Of a stretch of DNA of 64,000 nucleotides, positions 37,776-59,744 are shown in pieces. Made by a program: the position numbers and the translations under genes. The DNA comes from Synechococcus sp. CBW1108 (GTDB lineage: Bacteria > Cyanobacteriota > Cyanobacteriia > PCC-6307 > Cyanobiaceae): contig NZ_CP060395.1 of the NCBI RefSeq assembly GCF_015840335.1, positions 620,001 to 684,000 of the forward strand, given 5' to 3'. Positions within the stretch are counted from its first letter, which is position 1. Every line of letters starts with the position of its first letter. A model generated the notes under the pieces. The model worked only from the letters and a program-made list of their open reading frames with translations. It did no database searches and was not told where the DNA came from.

Positions 37776-37899
37776 GGAGCCGGGCAGCGTTGCGGTTAGT
37801 CGATTCTGGTGAATCCAGGCAGTTCTGGGGAGTGCGGATAGGCGTAATTGCTTGGGCTTGATCAGCATGGGGCCATGCGTTGTCACCGCGAATCCCCCC

Positions 37900-38511
37900 A
37901 TGGACTTCACCCCAAGGCTCGAGCAGATCCGCCAGAACACCGGCCAGATCGACAACCTGCTGAGGGACGCCCGGCTGGTGGTGTGCCTGGGCAACCGGGC
38001 CATGCTCAGCCTTTTTGTGGGCAGCCAGATCGGCCAGAGACAGCTGGTGGGCGCGGCCACCTGCGAAGCCAGCGGCCTGGCCCTGGTGGAGCGACACCAG
38101 CCCACGATGGTGTTTCTGAGCGACACCCTGGAGCAGGGCTCGGGGATTGCCCTGGTGCAGCAGATCAAGAGTCGCTGGCCTTCGATCCACACCCTTTTAT
38201 TGATCACCCAGGAGCACCGGCAGGCCCCGATCCAGCAGGCAATCCAGGCCGGCTGTGATGGCCTGCTGGTGGAATCGCGCCTGGGGCTGGGCAGCGCCGC
38301 CGCCGCCCTGCACGCCATCAGCGGCGGCGGGGTCTACATCGACCGCAGCCTCAAGGAGTTGTTCCGCCAGGGGCCCGGCGCAACGGGGCCGATCGAAGCC
38401 CTCAGCGAGCGCGAAAGGGATGTGTTGACACTGGTGGCGCGCGGCGAGACCAATGGGGAGATCGGCCAGCAGCTGTTCATCGCCACTGACACGGTGAAGT
38501 CCCCTCGCTAA
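37900..38511 (+). pseudogene. LuxR/NarL-type response regulator, truncated in its HTH
   Basis: A receiver-like domain (ARLVVCLGNRAMLSLF...PTMVFLSDTLEQGSG, with the Asp box shifted to SDT) precedes a LuxR helix-turn-helix: LSERERDVLTLVARGETNGEIGQQLFIATDTVKS. The reading then leaves the family at SPR and stops. The recognition helix and the last 25 or so residues are missing, so DNA binding is doubtful. The break at about 38500 is where accessory DNA begins. ATG 37900 or an upstream ATG (37867 or 37852) may be the start. Confidence 0.72.
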
Positions 38512-38743
38512 TGCGCCATTAGCTCAGTCAGATCAATGCTTTACAGCCGCAAGATTTCGGAAGATGGTGTGTCTGCCCGCCGTTCCTGGCACTCATGACA
38601 CCCACGCTCCACCCATCGCGGCCCGTCCGGTTGGCCTGCGACGTTGACCGGTTGCAGCAGGTGGCTCTTCCGTAAACCCAGCCCCCTGTACTCGCACTAG
38701 CAACGAACAGGGGAGCTGGATCGATCGACCGGACCGGAATCCG

Positions 38744-41700
38744 ATGCCATCGGCTAATACCAGTCTCTCCGTCACCGGAAGGGCAGACAGCGCAGACCCA
38801 TCGACTGCCCCCCTGACACCAGAACACCGGCGGTTCCTGGCCGACGCCGCCATCGACGTGGAGCGGATGGAAGGCATCCGCTCCGTCCTGGAGCCGTCGG
38901 ACCTGCCCGAATCGCTGGCCCACCTGAGGAAGGACGCGGATAAAGGCGCGATCCTGTTCTCCTGGACCACCGTCACCGGTGACGTTCTACCTCAGCTCCG
39001 GCTGGACAAACCGCCCACCGGCCAGGACGGCAAAAAGAAGGGCTACAGGTTCCCGAAGGACTCGACGATGGTTCTGTCGGTGCCGCCCGGGTGCCGGGAC
39101 CTGGTCATGGACGCTGGCGCGCCCCTGTTGATCGTAGAAGGAACGAAGCAGCACCTGGCCGCAGCATCGGCACTGGCCGGGGCGGAAGGGGCCGACCGCT
39201 ACGCAGTGGTGGGGATCAGCGGCTGCAGGGGCTGGTTGAAGGACGGGCGGCCGATTCCCTGCCTTCATGAGATCCCGCTGGCCGGGCGAAAGGTCTTCAT
39301 CGCCTTCGACGCTGACGTGACGACGAACCGAGAAGTTCACGACGCCGCCACCCAGCTAGCCGAAACACTGACCACGGAGTTCCTGGTGCGCCAGGTGCTG
39401 TTCATCCTGTCGGGCCGCAGCGGGAAGGACGGCCTGGACGACATCTTGGGTGGCCATCCGGCTGAAAATCGGCAGCAAATCATGCTGCGGCTGATCCAGA
39501 AGGCGACTCCGGATCGCATCCCCGGGAGGGCTCCGGCATGGCCGAAGGCGCGGACAGCCCAGGGGTTCTTCAACCGTGAAGAGCGCTTCCTGCCGGTGAC
39601 GATGTGGAACTACCTCGTCGACCAGCAGCCGATGGCGATCACCCGGGAAAGGAGCACTGAAAAGGCCATGAAGGGGGCCGTCGTCGTCTACGAAGCGGGC
39701 GTCTACCGGAACGGCGAATCGCGGCTCTTCCAGCTGTCGATCTGTCGGGCGCTGGGAGAAGAGATCGCCCTGGGCTACATCGATCTTGTTACAGAAATCG
39801 CCCTGAACGAACTGACCGCCGCGGGGCGCGTGATCCCGGAGCGGATGGATCTATTGCTGGTGAACTGCCGCAATGGGCTGGTCGACGTGATGACCGGCGA
39901 ACTGCTGCCCCACGACCCGGACATCCTGACCCTGTTCCAGGTACCGGTGTCGTACGACCCGAAAGCAACCTGCCCGAAGTACGAAGCCTGGCTGGAAGAA
40001 CGGCTGCCGGGCCAGATGGCCGCCCTGGAAGACGTGTCCTGCCAGGTGCTGGACAGGACCAGGACGCCGCAACGGTTCATCTTCCTGTACGGCCCGCCGC
40101 GCTCCGGGAAGTCGACGTACCAGCGGATCGCGATCGCGTTGGTAGGTAAGGAGAACACCAGTTCGGTCACACTTCACCAGCTGTCGGACGACCGCTTCGC
40201 CAGCGCGAACCTCTACGGGAAGGTTCTGAACGTGGCGGCAGACCTGTCGTCCAGGGACGTGAGGGATCTGTCGAACCTGAAGATGCTGACCGGTGAAGAC
40301 CAGCTGACCGCAAACCGGAAGTACGGGGTTCAGTTCAACTTCACCAACCAGGCCCTGATGGTGTTCAGCGCGAATGACGTCCCCGCGGTGAACGACCCGA
40401 CAGGGGCGTACCAGGAACGGGCGATGCCGTTCCATTTCTCCAGCCAGTTCCTGGGGAAGGAAGACCCACGAATTGAAGCCGCGATCATGGAGGAGCTACC
40501 CGGCATCCTGAACCGCTTTATACGGGCACTGCGGGCCCATCGGGAGCGGGGCGGCTACATCGGCACCGACGACGTCACTAGGGCCAACTTCAGCCGGCAG
40601 TCCAACAGGGCGAAAGAGTACCTGGACGAGATGACAAGGCCAGTCGAACGACCCGAAGGGACTCCCAGGGCGATCGTGTGGACCAGCTGGCAGTCCTGGG
40701 CCCAAGACAACGGCTACAACCCCGGCGGCAGGAACGGGTTCTTTGAAAAGGTCCGTAGCTGCGGGGTCGATGAATTCACTCCGAAAGGGGGGTCGAAGTC
40801 CTTCGCTTTGAAGGTCATTGACCCGGAAACCCAAGACGACGAAGGCGGCGACGACCGTGTCGGTGGTTTTGGGGGCGGTGCTGGCGACGACAACGGAAAA
40901 ACTGTCGACGGGTCAGATCCCAGTGGCGGCATAGGTTCTGGGCCTGCGGGGGGGGCACAGTCGGCAGTTTTGGGGCCAGTCGGCGATTTTTCCCTAACCC
41001 CCTCTGAGGGACATATCTCACCGACAGAGGTTGAAATATTCCCTAAGCCAGGGTGCGAAAAAACTGCCGACCCCCCTGAAAACTGCCGACCAGCGTCTTC
41101 GACAGAAGCCCCGAACCCCCTCTCCGACAAGGAAGTCGCCCGGTCGGCGGTTCCCAGCCCAGAACTACCGACTACCGCCACTCCGTCGGCAATTTTGGGA
41201 TCTGAGGTACCGATGGTCTTTGACCTGGAAACCCGCAGCGCCAACCAGCGGTTTGCCCCGGGAGTGACGGGCTTCGTGCGACTGATCGGCCATACCAGCC
41301 CAGATGGCATCGTTACATCCACAGACCCCGAAGTGGTGCTGGGCCATGGCGGCGTCCTGGTGGCCCATAACGGCTTCGGCTTCGACTTCCTGGTGCTGGC
41401 CCGTCATCACGGCTTCGACCTGCTCCAGGCAGGGGAACAGGGACAGCTGATCGACACCATGGTCCTGGCGGCCCTGGCCCTGCCCCCCGTCGGCGGTGAC
41501 GGCGAGAAAGCCATGAAGAACTGGTCCTTGGATCGCTTGGGAGAACAGCTGCTGGGCCAGCCGAAATCCGACAACGTCGTGCGACTAGGCGAACAGCACG
41601 GCGGCATTGATCAGATACCGGTCGACGATCCTGCCTACATCGACTACTGCCGCCAGGACGTCGCTATCGCCCAGGGCCTGTTCGAGCGTTTCGCACCCGG

Positions 41701-42946
41701 CGGCCGGCTCACCCCTTACCAGCAGCGAGAGATGCGGCTGATGGCCCGCCTAGCCGCAAGCATCACCCTGAACGGCTTCCGGGTTGACGTGGATCTGCTC
41801 CACCAGCGCATCGCCGAGGGCCAGCGCGCTAAGGACGAATGCTTGCACTGGCTGGTGGAGACCTACGACCTGCCCACCACTACCGCCGACGGGAAACGGG
41901 CGAAGAACCCCGCCGCCACGCAGGCCGGGAAAGACGCCATCTGCCGCGCCTTCGCCGACATGGGCGTGACCCTGCCTCTCACAGATAAGGGCAATGTCAG
42001 CACGTCCAACGAAACCATGAAGGAGCTAATCGAATCGGCCGGCAGCAGCCCGGAGGTTATACGACTGGCTGAAGCAATCCAGCGCCTGAACGGCATTCGC
42101 ACTGTGTACCAGATGGTCCTGAACCACCTTCAGGGCGATCGGATCCACCCGGAGTTGTTCGCCTGCCAGCTGAACGGTCGCTTCAGCGTGCGCCCCGGCA
42201 TGACCAACCTAGGTAAGCGTGGCGGGAAGGTCGCCGAACGGGCCATCTTCCTGCCTGATTCCGACGACCACGTGCTGATCGCCTGCGACCTGTCGCAGAT
42301 CGACGCCCGGGCCGTGGCGGTCCACTCCCAGGACCCGGCCTATATGGCGCTGTTCGACATCGACCCCGCCACCGGCCTGCCCCGCGACATCCACACCGAA
42401 GTGGCCAAAGCCATCTGGGGCGATCCCGCCCGCCGCAGCGACGCGAAGCCGATCAACCACGGGATCAACTACGGCATGGCGGCCAGCACCCTGGCCAAGG
42501 TCACCGGTCAGAGCGAATTAGAAGCCGTCCGCACGCTCGGAACCTTCTTTCGCCGCTTCCCCCGCCTGCGCGAATGGCAGGAGACGGTCCGTAAGAAGGG
42601 CGAACAGGGGGTACCCCTGGACAACGGCTTCGGCCGCATGATGCGCGTGAACCCGGAGCGGGCCTACACCCAGGCCCCGGCTCTGGTGGGCTGCGGCTGC
42701 GCCCGTGATCTGATGGTCGAAGGGATCCTGCGACTGCCGGTGGAGATCGTTCCCATGCTGCGCATGTTCATCCATGACGAATTGGTTTTCAGCGTGCCGA
42801 AGTCCGACGCCCCAGAAATCGAAGCCGCGATCCTGAAGGCTCTGCAGTTTGACTGGGCTCCCCACGAAGGAATGCGGCCGATCAGGGTCCTGGCTGAACT
42901 TGGCGCACGTGGAAACAACTGGGCCGAGGTTTATGCGAAGGACTAA
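38744..42946 (+). CDS. Giant replication fusion: TOPRIM-like primase region, SF3/D5-type helicase, 3'-5' exonuclease and family-A DNA polymerase
   Basis: One 1,400-codon frame without interruption. Residues 1-270: DUF3854/TOPRIM-like region with LLIVEGTKQHLAA (about 127) and FIAFDADVTTN (about 185). Residues about 290-620: D5/P4-type helicase with Walker A GPPRSGKST (450-458), NVAADLSSRD and LMVFSANDVP. Residues about 680-820: low-complexity Gly/Asp/Pro/Ser linker. Then the exonuclease: FDLETRS (Asp827, Glu829), AHNGFGFDF (about 873) and YIDYCRQD. Then Pol A: motif A CDLSQID (Asp1182), motif B with KPINHGINYG, motif C HDE (1344-1346). All catalytic residues look intact. Probably replicates a mobile element. 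Confidence 0.88.
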   Translation: MPSANTSLSVTGRADSADPSTAPLTPEHRRFLADAAIDVERMEGIRSVLEPSDLPESLAHLRKDADKGAILFSWTTVTGDVLPQLRLDKPPTGQDGKKKGYRFPKDSTMVLSVPPGCRDLVMDAGAPLLIVEGTKQHLAAASALAGAEGADRYAVVGISGCRGWLKDGRPIPCLHEIPLAGRKVFIAFDADVTTNREVHDAATQLAETLTTEFLVRQVLFILSGRSGKDGLDDILGGHPAENRQQIMLRLIQKATPDRIPGRAPAWPKARTAQGFFNREERFLPVTMWNYLVDQQPMAITRERSTEKAMKGAVVVYEAGVYRNGESRLFQLSICRALGEEIALGYIDLVTEIALNELTAAGRVIPERMDLLLVNCRNGLVDVMTGELLPHDPDILTLFQVPVSYDPKATCPKYEAWLEERLPGQMAALEDVSCQVLDRTRTPQRFIFLYGPPRSGKSTYQRIAIALVGKENTSSVTLHQLSDDRFASANLYGKVLNVAADLSSRDVRDLSNLKMLTGEDQLTANRKYGVQFNFTNQALMVFSANDVPAVNDPTGAYQERAMPFHFSSQFLGKEDPRIEAAIMEELPGILNRFIRALRAHRERGGYIGTDDVTRANFSRQSNRAKEYLDEMTRPVERPEGTPRAIVWTSWQSWAQDNGYNPGGRNGFFEKVRSCGVDEFTPKGGSKSFALKVIDPETQDDEGGDDRVGGFGGGAGDDNGKTVDGSDPSGGIGSGPAGGAQSAVLGPVGDFSLTPSEGHISPTEVEIFPKPGCEKTADPPENCRPASSTEAPNPLSDKEVARSAVPSPELPTTATPSAILGSEVPMVFDLETRSANQRFAPGVTGFVRLIGHTSPDGIVTSTDPEVVLGHGGVLVAHNGFGFDFLVLARHHGFDLLQAGEQGQLIDTMVLAALALPPVGGDGEKAMKNWSLDRLGEQLLGQPKSDNVVRLGEQHGGIDQIPVDDPAYIDYCRQDVAIAQGLFERFAPGGRLTPYQQREMRLMARLAASITLNGFRVDVDLLHQRIAEGQRAKDECLHWLVETYDLPTTTADGKRAKNPAATQAGKDAICRAFADMGVTLPLTDKGNVSTSNETMKELIESAGSSPEVIRLAEAIQRLNGIRTVYQMVLNHLQGDRIHPELFACQLNGRFSVRPGMTNLGKRGGKVAERAIFLPDSDDHVLIACDLSQIDARAVAVHSQDPAYMALFDIDPATGLPRDIHTEVAKAIWGDPARRSDAKPINHGINYGMAASTLAKVTGQSELEAVRTLGTFFRRFPRLREWQETVRKKGEQGVPLDNGFGRMMRVNPERAYTQAPALVGCGCARDLMVEGILRLPVEIVPMLRMFIHDELVFSVPKSDAPEIEAAILKALQFDWAPHEGMRPIRVLAELGARGNNWAEVYAKD

Positions 42947-43437: not shown

Positions 43438-44214
43438 TCAGCGCTTCAGGGCCAGGGCGTAGTGGGGCGCAACGCTATTGACACCCAGCTTTCTGCGCTG
43501 CTGGCCGTCATCCAGCTGCACTACCAGCCCATCGGTGGGCAACTCGCTCCACAGTTGGCCCTGCAGCCATAAGCGGTGGTGGCGTGCCAGCTGTGGGGCG
43601 CCACAAAGCAGGTATGGGGGGATGGGCAGACCCCAGCGCTCCAGCGCCAACAGCTGGATGGCGTGATCGGCCGCACTCTGCATCACCTCAAATGCAGCGA
43701 ACACCAGGCCCTTACCGCTGGGCACCTTGCGGCGCAGGGCCGCAGCGGGTGTGCTCTGGCGTCCATCGAGGCCGTACAGCTCACCGCGGATCTGCACACT
43801 TATCGGTGCGCCGAGCCTGGGCGGCACGGTTTCAACCAGGGGCAACAGGTGCATCGCGTCCGCGCCGCTGCGTGTCCACGCGGCCGTGAGGAGGCCCTGG
43901 CGGTACTCCAGAGCAATGGCGCACCCGTCGAGCTTGGGGGTCACCGAGAAGCGGCCAGCAGCGGCCGCACCAAGACCCGCCAGCCAGTCGCTCAATTCCT
44001 GTTTGTCGAGGCTCAACAGCTTGCTGCCCCCGCCGGGAGTAAGCAGCTCTGGTGCAGAGGGGTCGAGCTGCTGCAGCTCTGCCACCAGCCCATCAAATTC
44101 AACGTCGCTGAGGTACGCCTGGCCCGCCCGGTAGGCGGCATCAGCAGTGCGTATGGCACTGCGGAGGCGGAGGTGCCCCTGGGCCCTGGAGCAGCCAAGA
44201 ACTTCAGCCTGCAT
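43438..44214 (-). CDS. Minimal NAD+-dependent DNA ligase (Ia plus adenylation domain only)
   Basis: The 258-residue product contains the NMN-binding Ia region (AYRAGQAYLSDVEFDGLVAEL...LLTPGGGSKLLSL) and the nucleotidyltransferase core: motif I KLDG (Lys94), motif III RGE (143-145), motif IV TDGLVV (Asp228) and a motif V-like ALALKR end. It stops there: the OB fold, zinc finger, HhH and BRCT domains of a full LigA (about 670 residues) are absent. It may seal nicks for the neighbouring replication fusion. ATG 44214 overlaps the HTH gene by 11 bp. Confidence 0.8.
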   Translation of the reverse strand: MQAEVLGCSRAQGHLRLRSAIRTADAAYRAGQAYLSDVEFDGLVAELQQLDPSAPELLTPGGGSKLLSLDKQELSDWLAGLGAAAAGRFSVTPKLDGCAIALEYRQGLLTAAWTRSGADAMHLLPLVETVPPRLGAPISVQIRGELYGLDGRQSTPAAALRRKVPSGKGLVFAAFEVMQSAADHAIQLLALERWGLPIPPYLLCGAPQLARHHRLWLQGQLWSELPTDGLVVQLDDGQQRRKLGVNSVAPHYALALKR

Positions 44215-44566
44215 TGCCCAACTCCTCAACAGCCATTTGGGCTACCCCCACCAGCACTGACCACTGCAGAGGGCTCCATGGCGGTGGCCCCCAGCAGTCA
44301 ACATCGAGGTAGCGGTTACAGCTAGATGCCACATCACCCCACCAGTCCAGAGCAGGAGCAACGCTTGGCACCGGGGTGGCGCTGTTGACCTGCCTCCTCA
44401 GCAATCGCCTCACCGTGTCCGCCAGTCCGTCGAGTTCAAGGCAGCGTGCACCGGATGGGCTGGTGCGCTCGAACTCACTCAATGATCCGCTCTTGAGCAG
44501 CCTGTAGATCGTGCTGCGGCTCCGAAAGCCAAGCGCTATCGATGCTTCTGTGATGCTCACTTCCAT
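44204..44566 (-). CDS. Small HTH DNA-binding protein
   Basis: The 120-residue product begins MEVSITEASIALGFRSRSTIYRLLKSGSL, a helix-turn-helix of the excisionase/MerR-like type. A Trp-rich C-terminal half (LDWWGDVASSC...WGPPPWSPLQW) is not recognised. It overlaps the ligase gene and probably regulates, or is an accessory factor of, the same element. Confidence 0.6.
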   Translation of the reverse strand: MEVSITEASIALGFRSRSTIYRLLKSGSLSEFERTSPSGARCLELDGLADTVRRLLRRQVNSATPVPSVAPALDWWGDVASSCNRYLDVDCWGPPPWSPLQWSVLVGVAQMAVEELGNAG

Positions 44567-44828: not shown

Positions 44829-46586
44829 GGGCTTGCTGAATTTCATTCGCGGGTTTTTCGTCCGCGCCAAGGGCCGCGATCTCAGCCTGCAGCGCCAAGC
44901 GCTGGTGACCTCAATTTTACTCCTAGAAGCCGACTAAGCAGCCCACAGAAGCGCTGGACGGCGCCAGGAGGCGAGCAAATAGAGCATCAGGATGTACACA
45001 GAGACAAGAATAGAGAATAAGAGGCGCAGTAGCCTGAGAACCTTCTCGGCATTCATCACAAAGAACGCCATCGTGATCACCGTTCTTGATGTTTCAATCA
45101 GCTTGGTCATGATCCGATCCAGTCCATATTTCCGTTTGCTCGTTCCGATTCTTCCTTCGATCACGGAACGCTTTCTCAAGTCTGATTTAAAAAGCTCTTG
45201 TTGCTCTGCTGTCTGCACCTCGGCCTCTACCTGCTTCTTGCGTGGACGGCCACTGAGCCTGATGTTATTTTCTGCGCAGAACTTCTTGTTGCCTAATGTC
45301 ATATAGATTGAATCGGCACAGATTCGTGCTGGATAGTACCCTCGCTCTTCCTTGTATTGCTTGGCACGTGTGATCAGGTCGTTGGCTTCATTGTAGTTGT
45401 CCCAGCTGATTCGATCCACATCTACAAAACCATTATCATCTGATATTGAGATCTTCGCACCGAACTCTGTTCGCCTTCCTGCCTTGCCCCTCACGATCGG
45501 CCGCACGTGTGGTTTTGACAAATTGACAATTCGATCGTCGATGCGCCGGCTATCAGCGTCATACATCTCCTGCTGCTGCCGGTACAGTTCACTGGTGATC
45601 AGCAGCTTGCGGTAGAGCTGGGTTCCAAGCTCCAAAAGCATTGCACCGCAATGGATCATCTGATCAATTGCTCTGAGGTTTCTCCGGATCTCGTTGAGCT
45701 GAAAGCGCTTGACCTCCCGGATCTCTGCGCATTTGGGCCTTTTCTTCTTGATGATGGCCAGAAACCGATTCCGAGCTTTATCCCGGTTGCAGCGGGGTTT
45801 GCGATTGATCTTTCCCTGCAACTGCTTGAACAGTTCGTCGATGATCTTCTCAGTCGCCTCTCTCGCTTCGTTCAGCAACCTCAGATCTACTGGGTAGGGA
45901 ATGTCATCAGGCACGCAGGTTGCATCGAGAATCAGAGTACCCCAGTTACATTCAGGATCCAACGTTGCAGGCTTCACCCCTAGCGCTTCGTCGATGGCAG
46001 CAAGCTGTTGCTCCTCTTCTTGTTCGCTATCATCCTCCTCCGCCGAAACCAGCATCTCTTTAATCATCGCAATGCCATTGGCCTTGGTCATGTCATTGCA
46101 GATCTTGACCAGATCAGGGCCAATGCGCTTACGAAAATGCACCATCATCGATGGATCAAACGGTGGCATTGCCTGGTACGCACTCAAGCCAATGAAAAAT
46201 TGTAGATACGGTGATTCCGTGATCAGCTGAACCGTTTCGCGGTCTGTCACTCCCAGGCGTTGCTGGATGTAGAGCGCACCGAACGCCATCTGAAACGGCT
46301 TGGCCGGTGCTCCTGTCTTGGCACTGAATTGGGGTGCATACTGGCCTTCCAGCGGCATCCATGGAATCAGGTTACGAAGCAGAACCCAGCGATTATTGGC
46401 ATCCAGCTTGCCGCCGAAGGGCGTGTAAAACTCCTCGATCGATAGCTGACCTGCGTGCTGAAAAACGTACATTGGCGTGTCAGCAGATTGTTCTAAGCCA
46501 GGAATGGCTACATTTGGCTCATTTTAACGTGAGACCACCCCTGGAATCAACTGCAGCGCAATGGATATTGGTTCCTCAGCAAGCCC
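44829..46586 (-). mobile_element. Insertion sequence, copy 2 (1,758 bp)
   Basis: Same terminal repeats (GGGCTTGCTGA/TCAGCAAGCCC), transposase and orientation as 17103-18859. The flanking hexamers differ (TACTTA left, TAGGTA right), so there is no target duplication. The flanks are probably no longer the original pair, as after recombination or deletion. The right end truncates a phage-like gene. Confidence 0.92.
44934..46472 (-). CDS. DDE transposase, copy 2
   Basis: The 512-residue transposase is intact and differs from copy 1 at about nine positions (for example LDANNRWVLL for LDPNNRWLLL, ITRAKQY for IARTKQY). Domains and catalytic candidates are as described for copy 1. Confidence 0.9.
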   Translation of the reverse strand: MYVFQHAGQLSIEEFYTPFGGKLDANNRWVLLRNLIPWMPLEGQYAPQFSAKTGAPAKPFQMAFGALYIQQRLGVTDRETVQLITESPYLQFFIGLSAYQAMPPFDPSMMVHFRKRIGPDLVKICNDMTKANGIAMIKEMLVSAEEDDSEQEEEQQLAAIDEALGVKPATLDPECNWGTLILDATCVPDDIPYPVDLRLLNEAREATEKIIDELFKQLQGKINRKPRCNRDKARNRFLAIIKKKRPKCAEIREVKRFQLNEIRRNLRAIDQMIHCGAMLLELGTQLYRKLLITSELYRQQQEMYDADSRRIDDRIVNLSKPHVRPIVRGKAGRRTEFGAKISISDDNGFVDVDRISWDNYNEANDLITRAKQYKEERGYYPARICADSIYMTLGNKKFCAENNIRLSGRPRKKQVEAEVQTAEQQELFKSDLRKRSVIEGRIGTSKRKYGLDRIMTKLIETSRTVITMAFFVMNAEKVLRLLRLLFSILVSVYILMLYLLASWRRPALLWAA

Positions 46587-47474
46587 TAGGTAGAGCTCGG
46601 CGGTGCTCAGCGTCTGCAGATTGGGAACAGCGCTGTGGTCATGGCCCGCCTCAGCAACCGTGCCTGCATACAAGCCACTGCGCTGCTGGAAAAGGAAGCT
46701 GAACACCGGGTGACGGCGCAGCTCCTCCATGTAATCGCCATCGGAGAGGGCGACCCCATCGGCAGTGAGGGGTTGGCCCTTGCCATCGACGGGAAGCAGC
46801 CGCTCGCGGCCGTCCACATCCTCTAGCTGGAAGTGACCACCGCACAGCGTCACGAAGGTGTCAAAGAACGTCCCCCGCTCGTCGCCGCCGACGCGGCCCT
46901 CGGCTTCTGAGAAAAGTCGCTCCAGCAAGCGCTCCTTGCGCAGGTTCTGCACTTGGGAGCGGGCCTCATCCCGTTCCTTTTCAACGCTGCGCACTCGTCG
47001 GATGTTGGCCTCATTGAGCTGGCGTTCGCGGTCGCCCACCTGACGCTCAAATTCCTCGCGCTTGCGCTCGGCGTCCTGCAGGCGGGCGTATTCATCGGGG
47101 TTGATCTCCGAAAAACGGGACAGCTGGGCACGGGCCTTGCGCAGCTCTTTTTCGAGCTGGTTGCTGCGGCGTCGTTCAGCCCGCAGCGGCTCAGCATTGC
47201 TGGTGGTGGCACCAGGAGCGTCGTCGTTGTCGCTGCTGCCGCTGACACCTGGGTCCTGGGGAGGGGCAGTGTCAAAGCTGTCGTCACCGGTGCCGACGTC
47301 GTGGCCGCTGGCCTCATCGTCGGCCTCGTCGAGGGGGTCAAGTTCAGCAGCTAGTGGAGCCAGGGAGGCAGCAGGGCCCTGGTTGGGTTGCTGCTGCTGC
47401 TGCCGGTAGGTCTGCCAAGGCACGGCGGGAGCAGGGGACTGAGAAGCAGGGGTTGAAAAGAAGGAGAAGGACAT
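46587..47474 (-). pseudogene. Phage scaffold-like coiled-coil protein, 3' end cut by IS
   Basis: About 295 codons survive. The N-terminal part is Gln/Pro/Ala- then Asp-rich (residues about 10-90). A long charged coiled coil follows (NQLEKELRKARAQLSRF to KERLLERLFSEAEG, about 105-205). The last part (GTFFDTFVTLCGGHFQLED...LPVDGKGQPLTADG) resembles the ends of phage head scaffold/assembly proteins. The frame runs into the IS at 46586 and loses its own terminus. Assignment is from layout and the portal-like neighbour. Confidence 0.55.
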
Positions 47475-47543
47475 CACCCATCACGGCTGTGGTGTTGCGG
47501 GCGCCCCGTCCGGGCTGCGCTCGCATCTGCTGTTGCCAGCTCT

Positions 47544-48712
47544 TCAAAAGCCCTGCTCAGGCAGCTCATCCATCACAGGAGCAGAGCGCCTCGCCGGCAG
47601 GTAGATCCACTCGCCAGCAGGTAAGGGAGTGGAGGGCAGATAACCCGGCACCAGCAGTTGCATCCCGGCCGGGATCGGCGTGGTGGAGTGATAGATGGGC
47701 AGCAGCAGGGTGGTGCCAGCCGGCAGATGTTCCTCTCATGGCCAGCTGCTCAGCTCCGGATTGAACTCGCGCAGCAGAGAAAGAGTGAGATTCTGTTCGG
47801 CCGCCACGCTGCTCAGGTTTCCCCCTCACTGGTGAGGTAGGCCTCGCTTTGCTGCAGCACCGGGTTGAGGCTGCGCAGCTTGCTTTCAGTCGTGCCATGG
47901 CGGCCGGCCAGGACCGCAAGCGAGTCACCCTCGACTGCGGTGATCGTTTGGGTGCTTTCCAGCTGGGGGTTGCTCCGCCGCAAGGTGGCCACGGTGGTGC
48001 CATAGCGCTCAGCTATCAAGTTCAAGGTGTCGCCACTTCTGAGCACCAGCACGCTGTGGGGCCTAAGCACCAGCTGGATCGCTTCCCCCAGCAGCGGCTG
48101 TACCAATAAACCGATGCCGCCAGGGCCGTAGTCCGCCCCGAAGTGCTGCACCAGGCAGCCGGCGAATTGGGCCCGACCTCCTGATGGCAGACCACCCTGA
48201 GGCGACAGCTGGGCTAGGTCCCCTAGCCACATCACCCCCTGGCAGGGGGCCTGCACCGTGCCCAGCAGCGTTGGATCCCAGGGCAGCGGTGCCTCACCGC
48301 GAAAGCCTGGGGTGGCCCAGGGCAGTTCAGCCGCCAGCCAGTCAAAGGTGTTGCTGGTGCTTATCGGCAGGATTGCCGCACGGCAGAGGTAACCGCGCAG
48401 CAGCACATCCCCCGGATCGGTGAGAGCGGTGTCGTTGTAGCCGCCCACGATGCCGCCTTGCTCGAGGAAGCAGTCGATCACGTGTCGGCGGATCGGGATG
48501 GGGTTGCGGCTTTCGGGCCGGTCCACTTCAAACAAGCAGAGTCGGGCATTGGCGTAGGGCTGCAAGGCCAGCCATAGAGGCGCCGCCACGGGCAGTGCCA
48601 CCCGGCTGTCGAGCGCTGGTGATGCCGCCGGCAATCCCACCAGTTGCCCCCACTGCCCTGCAGCCCGCACAGGGTTTAGACCCTGGTTCAGCGGCGAGAG
48701 GGGCTGCTCCAT
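47544..48712 (-). pseudogene. LysM-containing phage-like protein, frameshifted
   Basis: The first 299 codons hold an unrecognised N-terminal domain of about 220 residues and then LysM-like repeats (VLRSGDTLNLIAERYGTTVATLRRSNP and AVEGDSLAVLAGRHGTTESKLRSLNP). A frameshift at about 47815 causes the stop after SEGET. In the next frame another LysM-like stretch continues (NLSSVAAEQNLTLSLLREFNPEL), a TGA interrupts it near 47737, and the same frame carries on as EEHLPAGTTLLLP to a stop at 47544. The gene is decayed. A tail or cell-wall-binding role is possible. Confidence 0.65.
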
Positions 48713-48715
48713 TGC

Positions 48716-49240
48716 TCAACCCCGCACCAGAGATCCCTGGAAGGGGTCGGGGTTGCACTGGCGCCAGTTCTGCAGCCGCGGCAAAAGCAGCGCCAGCTGG
48801 CCGATGTGCTGGCTCCTGTGCCGGTTCAGCACCAACGCCGGTGATGGGCCCTCTGGGTTCCACTCGCTTTCGGTTTCCTCCAGCAGCAGCTCGGTGGCGT
48901 AATCGACCACCGCCAACTTGCTCAGCGGCAGCGGGTTGGGCACGACGCCACCGGCCACGCCTTTGCGGCTGCTGCGGACCGGGCTGTTCACCTCGGCTGG
49001 GGTCAGCACTGCTAGCTGCTGATCGAGGCCGGCGATCGCATTGAGATGGCTCTGGGCGGTGCACACCCCCGTGGGGTAGTGGGTCTGGAGCATGGCCATC
49101 TCCCGGTTCAACGCCGCCAGCGCAGCACTGGTGACGGAGATGGAGAGGGCGATGCGCAGGGCTTCTGTGTCACCGGGGCGCCAGGAACAGATGGGTGGGG
49201 AGAGCTGGGTCATGCCCTCGTTTGCCAGCTCAACCGCCAC
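48716..49240 (-). CDS. Unknown protein in the phage-like cluster
   Basis: The 174-residue product (GTG 49240, or ATG 49213) has a helical middle (ALSISVTSAALAALNREMAML) and no recognised motif. It overlaps the portal-like gene by 11 bp and precedes the LysM gene by 3 bp, so it was part of the same operon. By position it may have been a head-completion or connector protein; that is only inference. Confidence 0.55.
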   Translation of the reverse strand: MAVELANEGMTQLSPPICSWRPGDTEALRIALSISVTSAALAALNREMAMLQTHYPTGVCTAQSHLNAIAGLDQQLAVLTPAEVNSPVRSSRKGVAGGVVPNPLPLSKLAVVDYATELLLEETESEWNPEGPSPALVLNRHRSQHIGQLALLLPRLQNWRQCNPDPFQGSLVRG

Positions 49241-50768
49241 TGGCCACGTTGGGCTCGCCCAGCCCCAGCTGCTGACGCAGCTCAGCCCCGTCGATCACCC
49301 CCCGCTCATGCAGCACCAGCCACTCCTGCACCGAAGGCTGGGGTTTGCGCGGGGGCTGGGGCGGCACCAGTGGGGAGATCTCCACGCTGCAGGCCGGCGT
49401 GTCGGAGAGCTTTTCGCCGGTGAGGCGGGTCCACTGGCGCAGCAGGGTGCTGAGCATCGAGCTCTTCTGGCCTGCAAGCGACTGCAGCACCGCAAAGCTC
49501 TGGCCGGCGGTGAGCGAAATCTCCAGCTCGGTGCGGGCTGGGCCATGGCCGCCGGCCGGGTGTCCCGCCGGGATCAAGGCGTCACGGCGTATGGCTTCCT
49601 CTAGCTGCTGCAGGTAAGCCCGGTGCTCCGCCAGAGAACGAGCCTCGATTTCGACCCACTGGAACTTGGCACCCTCCGGCAGGTCCATAAAGGAGGAGGT
49701 GGAGAGCACCAGGCGCTGGGGGCGTTGGGCATCCCCGGCTCCAGCTCCTTGCGGAGATCCCAGAGCGCCATCGCTGCGCCGGAAGCCGTAGGCATCCACC
49801 AGCCCGGTGCGTACGCCCACCGGCAGCGCGGTGCGTGACAACAGATCCTCGTAATCGCTGCGGCAGCGGTAGTGGTTGAGGTATTGGTGGGCCAGACCCA
49901 GGTGGGGCAGATCCCCCTCACCAAAGGCGCTGCCATCTACTGAGTACCAGAGAGCCGGCAGGTCAAAGCGCTGCGGCAGCAGCGAAGGCTCCCCCACCGG
50001 CACCACGTCGTAGCCATCAACGGCGCCAGGATTGGGATTGGCCTGCCAGCTGCGCAGCACCAGACCGTCATCCGTCACCGAGAGGCTTCGGTAAAGCCAG
50101 GCCTGCGGGTCCGGCACCAGGCCGCCATGGGCGTCGATCAGCACGGTTGGTACAGCAGCATTACCAGTGGCGAAACGGGGCGGCAGTGCCTGGCGGCGCG
50201 GCTCCCGCCAAACGATCTCCACCGGGCCCGACGCCGGAGCCGCACTGGCGGTATCGGTAGGCAGGCGCCAGTTGAGGAGGTCGCCTCGGGGCACCAGCTG
50301 CAGCCGCGGCAGGGAGAGCCGGTCACCCTTGGCGAGGGCTTCCAGCCGGTCACCTTCTGAGGGCCAGCGGTGCTGGGGTGGCAGCTGCAGGATCAGGCAG
50401 CCGCCATCGCGCAGGGTGAGCAGATCGGCCAGGAACAGGAACACCCCCAGGTCGGTGCCCTGGCCATCGACATCAGTGGCCACCCGGCTCAGCGAGTCGG
50501 GCAGCTCCTGCCAGCTCAGGCGGGACAGCATCCCGGCGTAGGTGCGTAGGGCATCGCGGTAGAAGCCGGTGGGGCGGGCTGCTTCCAGTCGCTTGAGGTA
50601 GCAGGTCTCGGGCTCCTCGATGCCGTGGGGGAGGTAGACCGGCCGGCGGCTGGTGCCGTCGGGGAGCTCCAGCAGGGTCCAGCAGTCGTAGACCAGCTGC
50701 AGGCGGTCTCTCAGGCCAGCGAGGGTGGGGTGTTCCAGCCAGGGGGGTTGGTTAGGGGGCTGGGACAC
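49230..50768 (-). CDS. Phage portal-like protein (DUF4055)
   Basis: The 512-residue product reads like DUF4055/portal proteins: an N-terminal RPVYLPHGIEEPETCYLKRLEAARPTGFYRDALRTYAGMLSRLSW, a central beta region, then LPEGAKFQWVEIEARSLAEHRAYLQQLEEAIRRDALIPA and a helical C-terminus. Portal proteins form the DNA entry ring of phage heads. GTG 50768 (MSQPPNQPPWLEHPTL) fits the family start; the frame also allows TTG 50840. No terminase or major capsid gene is present. Confidence 0.65.
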   Translation of the reverse strand: MSQPPNQPPWLEHPTLAGLRDRLQLVYDCWTLLELPDGTSRRPVYLPHGIEEPETCYLKRLEAARPTGFYRDALRTYAGMLSRLSWQELPDSLSRVATDVDGQGTDLGVFLFLADLLTLRDGGCLILQLPPQHRWPSEGDRLEALAKGDRLSLPRLQLVPRGDLLNWRLPTDTASAAPASGPVEIVWREPRRQALPPRFATGNAAVPTVLIDAHGGLVPDPQAWLYRSLSVTDDGLVLRSWQANPNPGAVDGYDVVPVGEPSLLPQRFDLPALWYSVDGSAFGEGDLPHLGLAHQYLNHYRCRSDYEDLLSRTALPVGVRTGLVDAYGFRRSDGALGSPQGAGAGDAQRPQRLVLSTSSFMDLPEGAKFQWVEIEARSLAEHRAYLQQLEEAIRRDALIPAGHPAGGHGPARTELEISLTAGQSFAVLQSLAGQKSSMLSTLLRQWTRLTGEKLSDTPACSVEISPLVPPQPPRKPQPSVQEWLVLHERGVIDGAELRQQLGLGEPNVASGG

Positions 50769-50840
50769 TGAAGAGAAAGTTGCTGCGGTGGTTGTCCTGC
50801 TGCGGCGGGTGGTGGGCACTGGCTGCTGGTGGGGTCTCAA

Positions 50841-52689: not shown

Positions 52690-54969
52690 ATGCCCGTCTA
52701 TGCGCGCCATGACGTCATGGTCGTCGATCAGAACCTCCGCCCTCTCGTGCAATGGCTTGCGGAACGCCATGGCACTGCTTATACCCCCCTGGCCTTTGCA
52801 CCAGCCGATCATCTAGAGCACCTCAAGGGGTTGCTGGAGCAAGCAGGTTTGATCTGGGTTCTACTCAGTCTTGGTCCAACGGATCTACAGAACGACTGCG
52901 GCGATCTGATCCTGCTTGCCGATAACGGCCCCCTCCTGTTGCTCTCCGATCCCCGGGGCTATCAGGTGCGCGACCCGTCAGCCCCCAGGCAGCCAGCCCG
53001 CCGGCTGCACCGATCTGATCTGCCCCAAGCGCCGGCACCATGGCAGGCCTTAGGCGTCAGCCCCGCCCTAACAGGTGATGAGGTGTCGGCAACGGCACTC
53101 GTTCACTTCAGCTACGGGCCAGCGACCCAGCAAGCCGCTGTGCTGATCGCCTCTGCCATTCTTGGCCTGGCGATTGGCTTTCTGCTGGCTATCGGCAAGG
53201 AGGTAGGCGCGGCTCGATGGATCGCCGGTCTCGGCAGCGTGGGCCTCTTGCTGGGGGCTGGCCTTGCACTGCTAAGCGATCCCTTCAGGCCAGCGCTGAT
53301 CACGGCCCTGCTGAGCACGCTGCTCGGCCTGCTTGTGCCCACCTTCAACACTGTGCTCACCAACCAGGCTCTCCCCGACAAGGACAGTGGGCTGATCCTG
53401 CAGATGGCGGGCCTTCTGCTCGCCGGCGCCCTCGCCGATGTGGGTTTGCGCTGGAGCGAGACCCGCAGCCTGCTGAGCGTGCAGCAAAGGGGTGGACATC
53501 GGCTGCGGCTGGCCGCCATTCATCGCTTGCTGCAGCTCCCGATGTCGTTTTTTCAGGATTACAAAGCCGGAGAGCTCAGTCTGCGGTTCGGATCGATCGA
53601 GGACGTACAGCAGGAGATCCAGTCACTGCTCAGCGGCGGAGCGCTACAGGCTCTGCTGAGCGCCGTGTTTCTACTTTTCATGCTCCGCATCAGCGCCGTC
53701 CTCACTCTCCTGGCGGTGGTGCTCGCCCTACTCCTGGTGGGGATCACACTGGTCATTGGCCGGGGCAGCCTGCGGTTGGAACGCCGCCGGGAAGAGCTAC
53801 TGGCGGAGGCGGGAAGCCGCAACCTGGAACTGATCAACAGCGTCTCCAAGTTGCGTTTGGCGGGTGTGGAAGCTGCCGCCCTGCGGCACTGGTGGGAGCC
53901 CTATGGCCAGGCGATTCACACGGGCACCGCAGTGGAGGCGCGCACCGCCCTGGTGTCCGTGCTTCAGGGCGTGGTGCCCAATCTGGGCGTGCTGCTTTTG
54001 ATCCTGCTCATCACCCGGCTGGTGGCCGATGCCGCCCTGCAACCAGCGTTGCGGGCTCCGAACGTCGGCCAGCTCCTGGGCTTCTTCTCGGCCTTTACCA
54101 CCTTTATCGGTGCCGTTGCCAGCAGCGCTGGGCTGATGGTTCAAGCCTTTGAGCTGCCCGTACTGCTGGAGCGGGCCAAACCCATCCTCAGCGCCATCCC
54201 CGAATCCGCTGAGCTCCAAAGGGTGGACCCAGGGCCGTTGCGAGGAGGGGTTGCCTACGAAGGCATTCAATTTCGCTACGGGGACGATGGTCCTTGGGTG
54301 ATCAACGACCTGACGCTCCGCATCCAGCCCGGGGAATTCGTGGCAGTGGTGGGCTCCTCAGGCAGCGGTAAGTCGACCCTGCTGCGCCTGCTTCTTGGGC
54401 TGGTACAGCCCCAGAAGGGCGCCATCCTCATTGATGGCAGGCCACTAGAGCGCCTGCGGCTGGATTTGGTGCGCCGGCAAATCGGCGTGGTGCCCCAGGA
54501 TGCCGCCCTCCTGGCAGGCACCATCCAAGACGTGATAGCCGGTGGGAGCCAGATCACGCCGGAGCAGGTTTGGCATGCCGCAGAGCAAGCCGCCATCGCC
54601 ACCGACATCCAGTCCTTCCCGATGGGCCTGCACACCGTTGTCTCTGAGGGAGGAGGCAACATCTCGGGAGGTCAGCGGCAGCGGCTGGCCATCGCCCGGG
54701 CACTGGTGCGGCAACCAGCCCTTTTGCTACTTGATGAAGCCACAAGCGCCCTCGACAACCGCAGCCAGGCTGAGGTGAGCCGCAACCTGCATCAAATGGG
54801 TCTGACACGACTGGTGATCGCCCACAGGCTGAGCACTATTCGCCACGCCGACCGCATCGTCGTCATGGAGGCGGGACAGATCGTGCAGCAAGGATCCTTC
54901 AACGAACTCAGCAACATGCCGGGTCCCTTCGCCGACCTGATGCACCGCCAGCAGGAACCCACCGCATGA
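52690..54969 (+). CDS. NHLM-type bacteriocin export ABC transporter (no peptidase domain)
   Basis: The 759-residue protein has a cytosolic N-terminal domain of about 150 residues without C39 catalytic residues, about six transmembrane segments (150-470) and an ATPase: Walker A GSSGSGKST (about 555), signature ISGGQRQRL (about 658), Walker B LLLLDEATSALD (about 678). The three-gene set ABC/HlyD/C39-ABC matches the NHLM export systems described for Nif11- and nitrile-hydratase-leader peptides. The next gene starts within its stop (ATGA). Confidence 0.85.
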   Translation: MPVYARHDVMVVDQNLRPLVQWLAERHGTAYTPLAFAPADHLEHLKGLLEQAGLIWVLLSLGPTDLQNDCGDLILLADNGPLLLLSDPRGYQVRDPSAPRQPARRLHRSDLPQAPAPWQALGVSPALTGDEVSATALVHFSYGPATQQAAVLIASAILGLAIGFLLAIGKEVGAARWIAGLGSVGLLLGAGLALLSDPFRPALITALLSTLLGLLVPTFNTVLTNQALPDKDSGLILQMAGLLLAGALADVGLRWSETRSLLSVQQRGGHRLRLAAIHRLLQLPMSFFQDYKAGELSLRFGSIEDVQQEIQSLLSGGALQALLSAVFLLFMLRISAVLTLLAVVLALLLVGITLVIGRGSLRLERRREELLAEAGSRNLELINSVSKLRLAGVEAAALRHWWEPYGQAIHTGTAVEARTALVSVLQGVVPNLGVLLLILLITRLVADAALQPALRAPNVGQLLGFFSAFTTFIGAVASSAGLMVQAFELPVLLERAKPILSAIPESAELQRVDPGPLRGGVAYEGIQFRYGDDGPWVINDLTLRIQPGEFVAVVGSSGSGKSTLLRLLLGLVQPQKGAILIDGRPLERLRLDLVRRQIGVVPQDAALLAGTIQDVIAGGSQITPEQVWHAAEQAAIATDIQSFPMGLHTVVSEGGGNISGGQRQRLAIARALVRQPALLLLDEATSALDNRSQAEVSRNLHQMGLTRLVIAHRLSTIRHADRIVVMEAGQIVQQGSFNELSNMPGPFADLMHRQQEPTA

Positions 54970-56099
54970 TCCAGTTCCGCAAAGAAGCCCTCGAGTCCCT
55001 CTCCTCGCCCGAACAACTTGATCAACCACTTCCCTTGCTCCGCCCGAGCCATTGGGCAACGCTCCTCGGGTTAGTTTTGTTTGCTGGGGCCGTTCTCCTC
55101 TGGTCGATCCTGGGCAGGCTACCCGTTCGCATCCAGGGCCGGGGGCTGCTTCTTTTGCCAGAGGCACTGGTACCGGTGCAAAGTCCCAGCAGTGGACCCC
55201 TGCAGGAGATCCTGGTGAAGGAGGGGCAATGCGTAAAAGCAGGCCATGTCATGGCTCGCATTGATCTGGTCCAGCTTCGGGGGGTGCTGGAAGCCGGTGG
55301 CAGAAGACTCCAGCAACTGCGCCGCCAAAACGACCTGGCGACGCTCCAGGCCCAGCGTGAAAGGAGTCTGGCAAGGAGCGACCTGGAGCGTTTGTTGCCT
55401 TACCGGGCCAGCGGCGCGATCTCCGAGGAAACCTTCATCGACAAGGAACTCCAGCTGCAACGGATTGACAGTCAGCAGCTGGCTGCATACCAGACCCGCC
55501 GGCAGGGCATCAATGACGAACTGCTCGCACTTACCAGACAACAGGAAGAATACCGGCGGGGGTCCCTGGTGGTCGCTCCTGTGGCGGGCTGCATAGTGGA
55601 GCAGTTGGTACAACCGGGCGCGGTGGTGAACGCCGGCAGCACGCTTTTCTCCCTGGACCGCCGGGACCGGCGTAAAGAAATCGTGAGCCTGGTCTACTTC
55701 CCCAGCCAGGACGGCAAACGCCTCAGACCGGGGCAGGAAGTGCGCATCACTCCCACAACCACCCGGGCCCAGCGCCATGGCGGTATCCGCGGGAAGATTC
55801 TTGGGCTACGCACCCTGCCCGTAAGCCGGGAGGCCCTGCGCCAACGGCTGGGCCTCGATTCCCTGGTGCAAACGGTTCAGCCTCCTGGCAGCAACAACGG
55901 CAACGAACCCCTGATTGAAGCGGTGACCAGCCTCCAACGCGATCCCCGCACCCGCAGCGGCTTTGATTGGGGTGGGGGCCCTGGGCCCGACCTGATCCTC
56001 AGCCCCGGCACAGGCACGGACGTGTCAGTTCTTGTGGAGCAACGCCAGCCGATCAGCTATGTGATCCCCCTTCTGCGGGACATCAGCGGCATCTATTGA
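54966..56099 (+). CDS. HlyD-family adaptor of the bacteriocin exporter
   Basis: The 377-residue protein has one N-terminal membrane segment (ATLLGLVLFAGAVLLWSIL, about 33-51), a biotinyl-lipoyl-like half (GPLQEILVKEGQCVKAGHVMARID), a coiled coil (about 100-185), then VVAPVAGCIVEQLVQPGAVVNAG and a beta-barrel domain. It should bridge the ABC transporter and the outer envelope. It overlaps the preceding ABC gene by 4 bp and ends 1 bp before the next. Confidence 0.87.
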   Translation: MIQFRKEALESLSSPEQLDQPLPLLRPSHWATLLGLVLFAGAVLLWSILGRLPVRIQGRGLLLLPEALVPVQSPSSGPLQEILVKEGQCVKAGHVMARIDLVQLRGVLEAGGRRLQQLRRQNDLATLQAQRERSLARSDLERLLPYRASGAISEETFIDKELQLQRIDSQQLAAYQTRRQGINDELLALTRQQEEYRRGSLVVAPVAGCIVEQLVQPGAVVNAGSTLFSLDRRDRRKEIVSLVYFPSQDGKRLRPGQEVRITPTTTRAQRHGGIRGKILGLRTLPVSREALRQRLGLDSLVQTVQPPGSNNGNEPLIEAVTSLQRDPRTRSGFDWGGGPGPDLILSPGTGTDVSVLVEQRQPISYVIPLLRDISGIY

Positions 56100-56100
56100 C

Positions 56101-58566: not shown

Positions 58567-59744
58567 ATGCAAAATCCCTCGGTTTTCATCTCCTATTCTC
58601 ACGACAGCGATTCCCATAAGGACTGGGTCTACCAGCTTGCTTGCGAGCTTGTAAAGAATGGGGTAGAGGTTACCTTGGATCAATGGGATATACAGCTCGG
58701 CTCCAATATTCACAAGTTTATGGAAAAGGGCTTGACGAACGCGGATCGAGTGCTGGTTGTATGCACGGATAATTACAACACCAAGTCCAACGAAGGGCTG
58801 GGGGGGGGGCTGGCTATGAAAAGAATATTCTTACTTCTGAACTACTTTCTTCTCAAGATACCACCAAGTTTATTCCATGCATTAGAGAAGTAAGCGGTTC
58901 ATGCAAGACACCAGTTTGTTTGGGTGGGCGAGCATACATAGACTTCACAGATAACAGCGCTTTTGCTGAAAAAGTGAAAGAGCTACTCCATGAGCTTTTT
59001 GGCATCCCCTTAAGGCCAAAGCCTGTACTTGGTAGGAGTCCGTTTGCCAATGATGATGCAGATAAGTTGCCGTCCTTACATGGTCAGAGCAACACAGTAT
59101 TTTTCAGTAGCCGATTCAGTGATGCCTTTCCTGGTGTACGAGGCATTCACTGGTTTACGGATCCATTCGAGGCAGTGGAACGCTTAAACATCCTGTTCCG
59201 CCAACCTATTGCATTTCGCGAGACTACTCCTATCTGGTGGTGGCGAACTGGAGAGATGCATATCAGCAGGTTTGAGACTCTCGCGCCTGACACTATTCTT
59301 CTTGATACCAAAGAGCTAGTTGTTGACGAAATCGCGGCTGTGAATGCAGGCGAATACTATCAGTCTTTTGTTTACATTAAAGCAAGACCTTCTGAAAGGA
59401 CAGGGCTTTACGATTCCGTGTCGGAGGCGGAACAGATTGAGGTATGTGGGTATGCCTATGAGGAGTATGCTATTTATAAGGGAAGTTTGGTTACAAGAGC
59501 TGAATACGATGATGGCTCTACCGTTTCTGACGGAAAAGTTGTCCAAATGAATGGAGAAGCAAAGCTTCGCATGAGATATGTGAGTCCTTACAACCTGTTG
59601 ATTGCGCCCATGGGTAGCCCAATCAATAATAACCGATTTGACCTGCAGCGAGTCGAGTTACTGAACGCAATTCTTCGAGGTGAGACTACTCTAGAGAAGC
59701 TTGTTAAAGAAGTTCTGAAGTTACCCAAAACCTCTCTGACGTAA
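58567..59744 (+). pseudogene. Cassette gene: SEFIR/TIR-domain protein, frame broken at a G10 tract
   Basis: The first frame (58567-58893) encodes VFISYSHDSDSHKDWVYQLACEL, VTLDQWDIQLG and ADRVLVVCTDNYNTKSNEG, a SEFIR/TIR signalling domain. At the G run (58800-58809) the frame is lost. One base more, or two fewer, would restore GYEKNILTSELL...KFIPCIREV and the C-terminal domain of about 275 residues, which carries no recognised motif (WFTDPFEAVERLNILFRQP, PIWWWRTGEMHISRFE). The stop TAA at 59742 touches attC-like site 2. Such proteins often act in anti-phage immunity. It may be phase-variable rather than dead. Confidence 0.75.
58800..58809 (+). repeat. G10 homopolymer inside the SEFIR/TIR gene
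   Basis: Ten consecutive Gs lie exactly where the coding frame is lost; G8 or G11 would restore it. A slipped-strand contingency tract, a plain mutation, or a sequencing error are the options. Confidence 0.85.

Follow-up and report, generated by a model that had tools for sequence, protein, structure and literature searches.

A single-chain TOPRIM-helicase-polymerase gene in a putative phage-derived element of Synechococcus sp. CBW1108

In a 64,000-nt stretch of the Synechococcus sp. CBW1108 genome (NZ_CP060395.1, positions 620,001 to 684,000, forward strand; hereafter the window), a single open reading frame (ORF) joins a DnaG-like TOPRIM core and an SF3 helicase to a family-A DNA polymerase with its proofreading exonuclease. 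We propose, with a probability of about 0.7, that the encoded enzyme replicates an integrated element, either a siphovirus-like prophage or an island of phage origin, that has since decayed. The fusion itself is real: a homologue of 1583 amino acids (aa), L137, is 56% identical along its full length and is fused at the identical place.

Domain organization of the fusion protein

The frame occupies window positions 38744-42946 on the + strand and encodes 1400 aa, exactly as an initial annotation of this DNA had described; it starts with ATG and has no internal stop. Pfam, NCBIfam and PHROGs also concur with the domain content, order and coordinates given there: DUF3854 (TOPRIM-like), D5_N, SF3 helicase, linker and family-A polymerase. 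Pfam places DUF3854 at aa 121-236 (2.3e-7), D5_N at aa 369-419 (2.5e-10) and DUF5906/SF3 at aa 448-554 (1.3e-19), all above curated cut-offs, which disposes of the scenario that profile searches would fail to support the TOPRIM/helicase half. DNA_pol_A (PF00476) matches aa 1080-1370 (1.6e-30; 106.8 bits against a curated cut-off of 34.3), the NCBIfam model primase_Cterm of the P4 family (TIGR01613) matches aa 373-666 (9e-50; 169.2 bits against 108.7), and PHROGs assigns a primase to aa 62-700 (1e-126) and a DNA polymerase to aa 821-1399 (2e-85). These E-values exclude a chance origin of the matches. The predicted parts are as follows.

38744-42946, + strand: primase-like/helicase/exonuclease/polymerase fusion gene (ORF, Pfam, NCBIfam, PHROGs, L137 homologue)
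38819-39451, + strand: DnaG-like catalytic core, N-subdomain plus TOPRIM/DUF3854, aa 26-236 (Pfam DUF3854, PDB profile search, hhalign, residue counts)
39848-40741, + strand: D5_N and SF3 helicase, P4 family, aa 369-666 (Pfam, NCBIfam, model match to SaPI5 7ola, residue counts)
40784-41203, + strand: low-complexity linker, about aa 681-820, frame open, partly alignable with the L137 homologue (sequence composition, alignment)
41204-41713, + strand: 3'-5' proofreading exonuclease, aa 821-990 (Klenow alignment, residue counts, model pLDDT 94)
41216-41233, 41366-41386 and 41645-41659, + strand: motifs Exo I, Exo II and Exo III (Klenow alignment)
41714-42943, + strand: family-A polymerase, aa 991-1400 (Pfam, model match, Klenow alignment, residue counts)
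42275-42319, + strand: polymerase motif A (D1182)
42434-42475, + strand: polymerase motif B (R1231/K1235/Y1243)
42761-42790, + strand: polymerase motif C (H1344-D-E)

Structure prediction agrees with this layout. AlphaFold models, built from alignments of the loci of relatives as two separate parts (aa 1-703 and aa 815-1400), were both confident, with mean predicted local distance difference test (pLDDT) scores of 85.6 and 94.0, respectively. The best PDB match of the first is the SaPI5 primase-helicase (7ola, E 1e-20) and that of the second is the large fragment of Pol I (Klenow/Bst Pol I, E 1e-21). The linker between them is rich in Gly, Pro, Ser, Ala and Asp, in keeping with the low complexity noted earlier; it is the least conserved part relative to L137, yet its ends align in frame.

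Within the helicase, the Walker A motif is intact, as claimed (GPPRSGKST, aa 450-458, nt 40091-40117), and G450, G455, K456, the motif-C Asn (N544) and the Arg finger (R559) are invariant in 28 sequences. With its catalytic residues complete, the domain is expected to be competent, and hexamer formation and unwinding are predicted.

The C-terminal part likewise carries the three Exo motifs and polymerase motifs A, B and C that had been reported, all alignable with Klenow. The exonuclease residues are D827/E829 in Exo I, N876/D881 in Exo II and Y968/D972 in Exo III; the Pfam exonuclease model finds no match in the fusion protein, though the Exo motifs are complete. A profile of 39 relatives aligns with the Klenow fragment from the first Exo motif through the last polymerase motif (E 2e-57), and all six motifs are found in nearly all relatives. 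From these complete motifs, both helicase and polymerase activity are predicted.

Two positions set this PolA family apart. The equivalent of E. coli Glu710 is Asp in 38 of the 39 relatives (D1187 here) and that of Phe762 is His in 36 (H1239 here); both substitutions lie within window positions 42275-42475 (aa 1178-1244). Position 710, the steric gate, and position 762 govern discrimination against ribonucleotides (rNTPs) and dideoxynucleotides (ddNTPs), and nucleotide selection by this family may therefore be unusual, a prediction only. Published discussion of position 762 in viral PolA covers Phe, Tyr and Leu (PMC9069017); the literature we searched yielded no mention of His762 in connection with phage polymerases.

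The N-terminal region is DnaG-like by descent. When a profile of 19 sequences was compared with PDB, E. coli DnaG catalytic cores were the sole matches (marginal E 0.004-0.012), and hhalign against the DnaG proteins of relatives was collinear across 200 columns (E 2e-4, probability 46). The TOPRIM Glu (E132, followed by G133 in the conserved core), the DxD pair D189/D191 and the downstream pair D232-D233 are invariant in all 28 homologues; priming by this core is plausible. No archaeo-eukaryotic primase/PrimPol (AEP) domain was matched in the fusion protein by Pfam or NCBIfam.

The inserted element

A LuxR-type response-regulator gene is interrupted by an insertion of 32.2 kb, and the fusion gene begins 0.25 kb in from the left end of that insertion. 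The closely related genome G015 (97% identity) runs collinear with positions 15055-38498 of the window, apart from one indel or insertion sequence (IS) interruption, and past 38498 it continues at G000:C1:690723, equivalent to window position 70723. The regulator gene is cut after about 215 codons, with native sequence ending at about 38495-38498. Both junctions carry the attachment core ACACGGT, the right-hand copy at window-equivalent positions 70713-70719 beyond the end of the window, and G015 has it in its empty site. A serine recombinase is encoded at the right end (Resolvase PF00239, 1.4e-12; Recombinase domain below cut-off), and related recombinases occur in 16 of 251 genomes of the family. 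Two features of a serine-integrase prophage, a recombinase at one end and the core at both, are thus present, and we read the element as a prophage remnant or phage-derived island. Together with its portal- and scaffold-like genes, this setting lends good support to the earlier view of the fusion protein as a replication enzyme of a mobile element.

37852-38511, + strand: 5' part of the LuxR/NarL-type response-regulator gene (GerE match ends at profile position 35 of 57; intact in G015, 97% identity)
38489-38495, no strand: left attachment core ACACGGT (read at both junctions and in the empty site)
43438-44229, - strand: NAD-dependent DNA ligase, nucleotidyltransferase domain only, 263 aa (PF01653 2.6e-15, phrog_3869 2.9e-24, KLDG motif by eye)
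44204-44566, - strand: small possible helix-turn-helix (HTH) protein upstream of the ligase (weak HTH matches below cut-offs)
44934-46472, - strand: DDE transposase of an IS inside the element (PF13586 2e-16)
46524-47477, - strand: head-scaffold-like protein (phrog_206 4.9e-13)
47813-48712, - strand: LysM-domain protein (PF01476 6.6e-12)
49230-50840, - strand: portal-like protein, DUF4055 (nearest portals from cyanosiphophages S-CRES1, S-CBS2 and PSS2, 28-29% identity)

The ligase gene is convergent with the replicase gene, and the small ligase is a possible partner in a replication module. Several transposases lie inside the element; the 512-aa DDE transposase at 44934-46472 has a near-identical counterpart at 17207-18745. 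The element also contains a C39-peptidase ABC exporter cluster of two ABC proteins and one HlyD protein (52690-58263) and a TIR-domain gene seemingly broken into two frames (58567-59744). Just inside the left end, positions 38512-38590 resemble the 5' part of a tRNA (GCGCCATTAGCTCAGT...), uncalled by ARAGORN or Rfam.

Proposed function and its alternatives

In the mechanism we propose, the serine recombinase would excise the element, and the SF3 domain would assemble as a ring on the element DNA (compare SaPI Rep proteins) and unwind it. The TOPRIM core beside the ring would make or help make primers, which the tethered polymerase would extend and proofread. Such a ring would bear several polymerases via flexible linkers, and primers could therefore be handed off inside the complex. 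We infer this combination of priming, unwinding and synthesis in one chain, which would amount to a nearly complete replisome, with ring formation and priming modelled on SaPI Rep and DnaG. The host encodes a PolA and a DnaG of its own. The fusion would most likely have originated by joining of neighbouring primase-helicase and polymerase genes, which are still separate in relatives.

Several observations weigh against this reading. Priming is the weakest step, and primase activity is doubtful: the Asp of the DnaG EGYMD motif, four residues past the Glu, is replaced by Gln136 in all 28 homologues, and a CHC2 zinc ribbon is indicated neither by a Pfam match nor by a Cys/His cluster upstream of the core. 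Among the element proteins searched, a subset of its ORFs, the only virion genes recognised were portal- and scaffold-like, with major capsid, terminase and tail genes all missing from the matches. Rfam and repeat scans revealed no origin-like iterons or RNA elements beside the fusion gene. Besides the fusion gene, no gene is common to this element and the relatives examined, and whether it lives as a phage, a satellite or a plasmid-like element is therefore not fixed. With an IS in its middle and virion genes unrecognised, the element is decayed, and the enzyme may be non-working in this strain.

The alternative that fares best treats the N-terminal half as an initiator and helicase of the Rep type that lacks primase activity, its TOPRIM core serving DNA binding or being degenerate, so that host DnaG primes and only helicase and polymerase act. 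We consider this a serious possibility, if a somewhat improbable one. It would account for the Gln four residues past the Glu and for the missing zinc ribbon, and the host does encode a normal DnaG. DUF3854 also occurs in the plasmid Rep proteins CyRepA1 and CyRepA2, where its function is unknown (PMC10079941). The strict conservation of E132, D189, D191, D232 and D233, however, suggests a working metal site, and the only PDB relatives recovered by profile are primase cores.

We think it unlikely that the gene is a relic, whether an unused intact-looking frame in a dead prophage or one retained for some other role, for instance in repair. The IS insertions and the virion genes missing among the proteins searched would fit a relic, as would the lack, among the 291 genomes sampled from the class, of a close copy outside this strain. 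Yet 1400 codons are free of stops and every catalytic residue is kept, and across the gene third codon positions differ from L137 about twice as often as the others (0.57, against 0.31 at first and 0.27 at second positions), though most of this divergence may predate the insertion. The proposal that a base error in the linker joined two neighbouring genes is hardly credible and was rejected: although Streptomyces phages keep the halves as separate neighbours, and of two almost identical viral contigs, L063 and L066, one is fused and the other split, so that single errors or indels can toggle the state, it is excluded by the 56%-identical L137 homologue with its identical fusion point and alignable linker ends, and the architecture recurs in other genomes, fusions being present in G005 and G272, both complete single-contig genomes, as well as in phiAsp2 and a plasmid with a complete record.

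Fused, split and module-swapped relatives

The L137 contig (NYVG01000054.1) is labelled as the Gammaproteobacteria metagenome-assembled genome (MAG) CPC316. Its fusion gene adjoins a phage integrase and a terminase-like gene (weak match), and a neighbouring ComM-like gene shares 52-54% identity with picocyanobacteria versus 46-51% with other cyanobacteria. Because this gene is slightly nearer to picocyanobacteria, L137 is likely misbinned and actually cyanobacterial.

More distant relatives occur in both states. Coverage of 80% or more of the query is reached by 13 of 50,697 phage records. Streptomyces phages encode the primase-helicase and polymerase halves as adjacent genes; phiAsp2 Pas55 and a protein of the Streptomyces plasmid pS1D4-14.2 are single chains. 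In IMG/VR, TOPRIM-SF3-PolA chains are found at L063, L067, L077, L079 and L085, chains whose middle domain differs are common, and the halves are separate on many contigs. A scan of viral contigs with the single protein returned no close relative; the wider family emerged by alignment scans. Seven changes between the fused and split states are needed on the primase-helicase tree, an upper reading because one of them divides near-identical contigs and could reflect a single indel or a mistake in assembly. These contigs, L063 and L066, have nearly identical primase-helicase halves, fused in one and split by about 500 bases in the other, representing either a very recent fusion or fission or an assembly error. 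The direction of change, fusion versus fission, is not readable from this tree.

The initial annotation singled out the fusion as the unusual feature. This stands for cyanobacterial genomes, in which it is rare, but not more broadly, since it recurs in phiAsp2 Pas55, the Streptomyces plasmid and many viral contigs; the fusion thus appears uncommon but not unique. A 2016 survey of viral replication genes by Kazlauskas et al. reportedly may note such fusions. Our searches of the open literature found no paper describing this one, though an earlier paper may have done so. Polymerase swapping among phages, as separate genes, has been described in a paper from which the words fused and fusion are absent (PMC11348598).

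Other cyanobacteria do contain the architecture: G019, G005 and Synechococcus AG-673-B04 are fused, but their PolA is of a distant lineage, and no window-type polymerase at comparable score was found in other genomes among the 291 sampled. In trees of the primase-helicase (36 rows) and polymerase (65 rows), the two halves behave differently. The window, L137, G019, G005, AG-673-B04 and two unfused G143 copies form one primase-helicase clade (bootstrap 100 / SH-aLRT 100). In the polymerase tree, the window and L137 fall with actinophage-type PolA, and G019, G005 and AG-673-B04 form a distant group. Constraining the five picocyanobacterial polymerases together was rejected by the approximately unbiased (AU) test at p = 0.014, a value to be read with care, as the group was suggested beforehand by identity values and long branches are involved.

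A second kind of chain, present in the picocyanobacterial genomes G195 and, twice, G272, joins TOPRIM, a RecA-like AAA_25 motor, an exonuclease and a second PolA type. These motor-swapped chains span 1462-1700 aa (L201:1595-5980, - strand; L202:2895-7628; L203:3100-8199), two of them in one complete genome. A scan of viral contigs with the second PolA type found no relative, a weak negative given the short patterns used, and this type may therefore belong to non-phage elements. Since SF3 and RecA-like motors and two PolA lineages are variously fused, at least three module combinations exist within one bacterial family, suggesting that motor and polymerase modules are exchanged among related elements.

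The unfused TOPRIM-SF3 genes of G143 lie on one contig (L162:5817-8513, - strand, and L163:12931-15495), with no viral PolA match within the 38 kb examined around them. The AG-673-B04 (L138) and G143 (L163) elements occupy the same host locus, on the rpsN-pnp-rsmI side, beside a tyrosine recombinase; the gene is fused in one element and unfused in the other. The locus is possibly an integration hot spot akin to the one used by tycheposons.

We tentatively suggest that picocyanobacterial mobile elements carry modular single-chain replicases, in which TOPRIM is combined with an SF3 or a RecA-like AAA_25 motor and with a PolA from one of two distant lineages, and one protein would start, unwind and copy the element. 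The window PolA, with Glu710 to Asp and Phe762 to His, would perhaps be suited to extending its own primers. The recurrence of the architecture in phages reduces the headline novelty, and a new point is this module-swapped set, alongside the position of the gene within the insertion and the two PolA substitutions. An active chain would rank among the most compact machineries for DNA replication in elements of the tailed-phage type; it might serve as a single enzyme in isothermal DNA amplification and as a tractable model of helicase-primer-polymerase coupling. With its split, fused and module-swapped members, this family offers a natural series for probing what fusion gains. Pipelines name such proteins after one half only, and the class is therefore under-recognised.

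Known systems compare as follows. Pas55 of the Actinoplanes phage phiAsp2 (AAT36803.1, 1415 aa), like similar IMG/VR proteins, shares the N-terminal DUF3854/TOPRIM, the same C-terminal PolA family and the single chain, but its middle is another P-loop ATPase without an SF3 match, and it is annotated only as a putative DNA polymerase. FNV66_RS00805 of Streptomyces sp. S1D4-14 plasmid pS1D4-14.2 (1446 aa; L004:3535-7875) has DUF3854, D5_N, SF3 and family-A polymerase in one chain. It differs in being 29% identical over the whole alignment, with a polymerase that groups with split phage genes, and its name, 'phage/plasmid primase, P4 family', hides a full C-terminal PolA. In Woodruffvirus-type Streptomyces phages (Xkcd426 gp53/gp52, YDN12, Mischief19, phiSAJS1), both halves are homologous (~34-38% identical) and in the same order, but as two unfused adjacent genes. 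The SaPI5 primase-helicase and other D5/P4 SF3 helicases share the SF3 fold, D5_N, Walker A and the Asn/Arg positions, but with no match to the DUF3854 TOPRIM core and no polymerase. CyRepA1 and CyRepA2 of cyanobacterial plasmids likewise place a motor domain downstream of an N-terminal DUF3854 (PMC10079941). That motor is a C-terminal DEXDc helicase without a polymerase, in contrast to the SF3 and polymerase of the window protein. Finally, the E. coli Pol I Klenow fragment has the same exonuclease and polymerase folds and motifs, but carries E710 and F762 where the window family has Asp and His, and only the window enzyme is fused to a primase-helicase.

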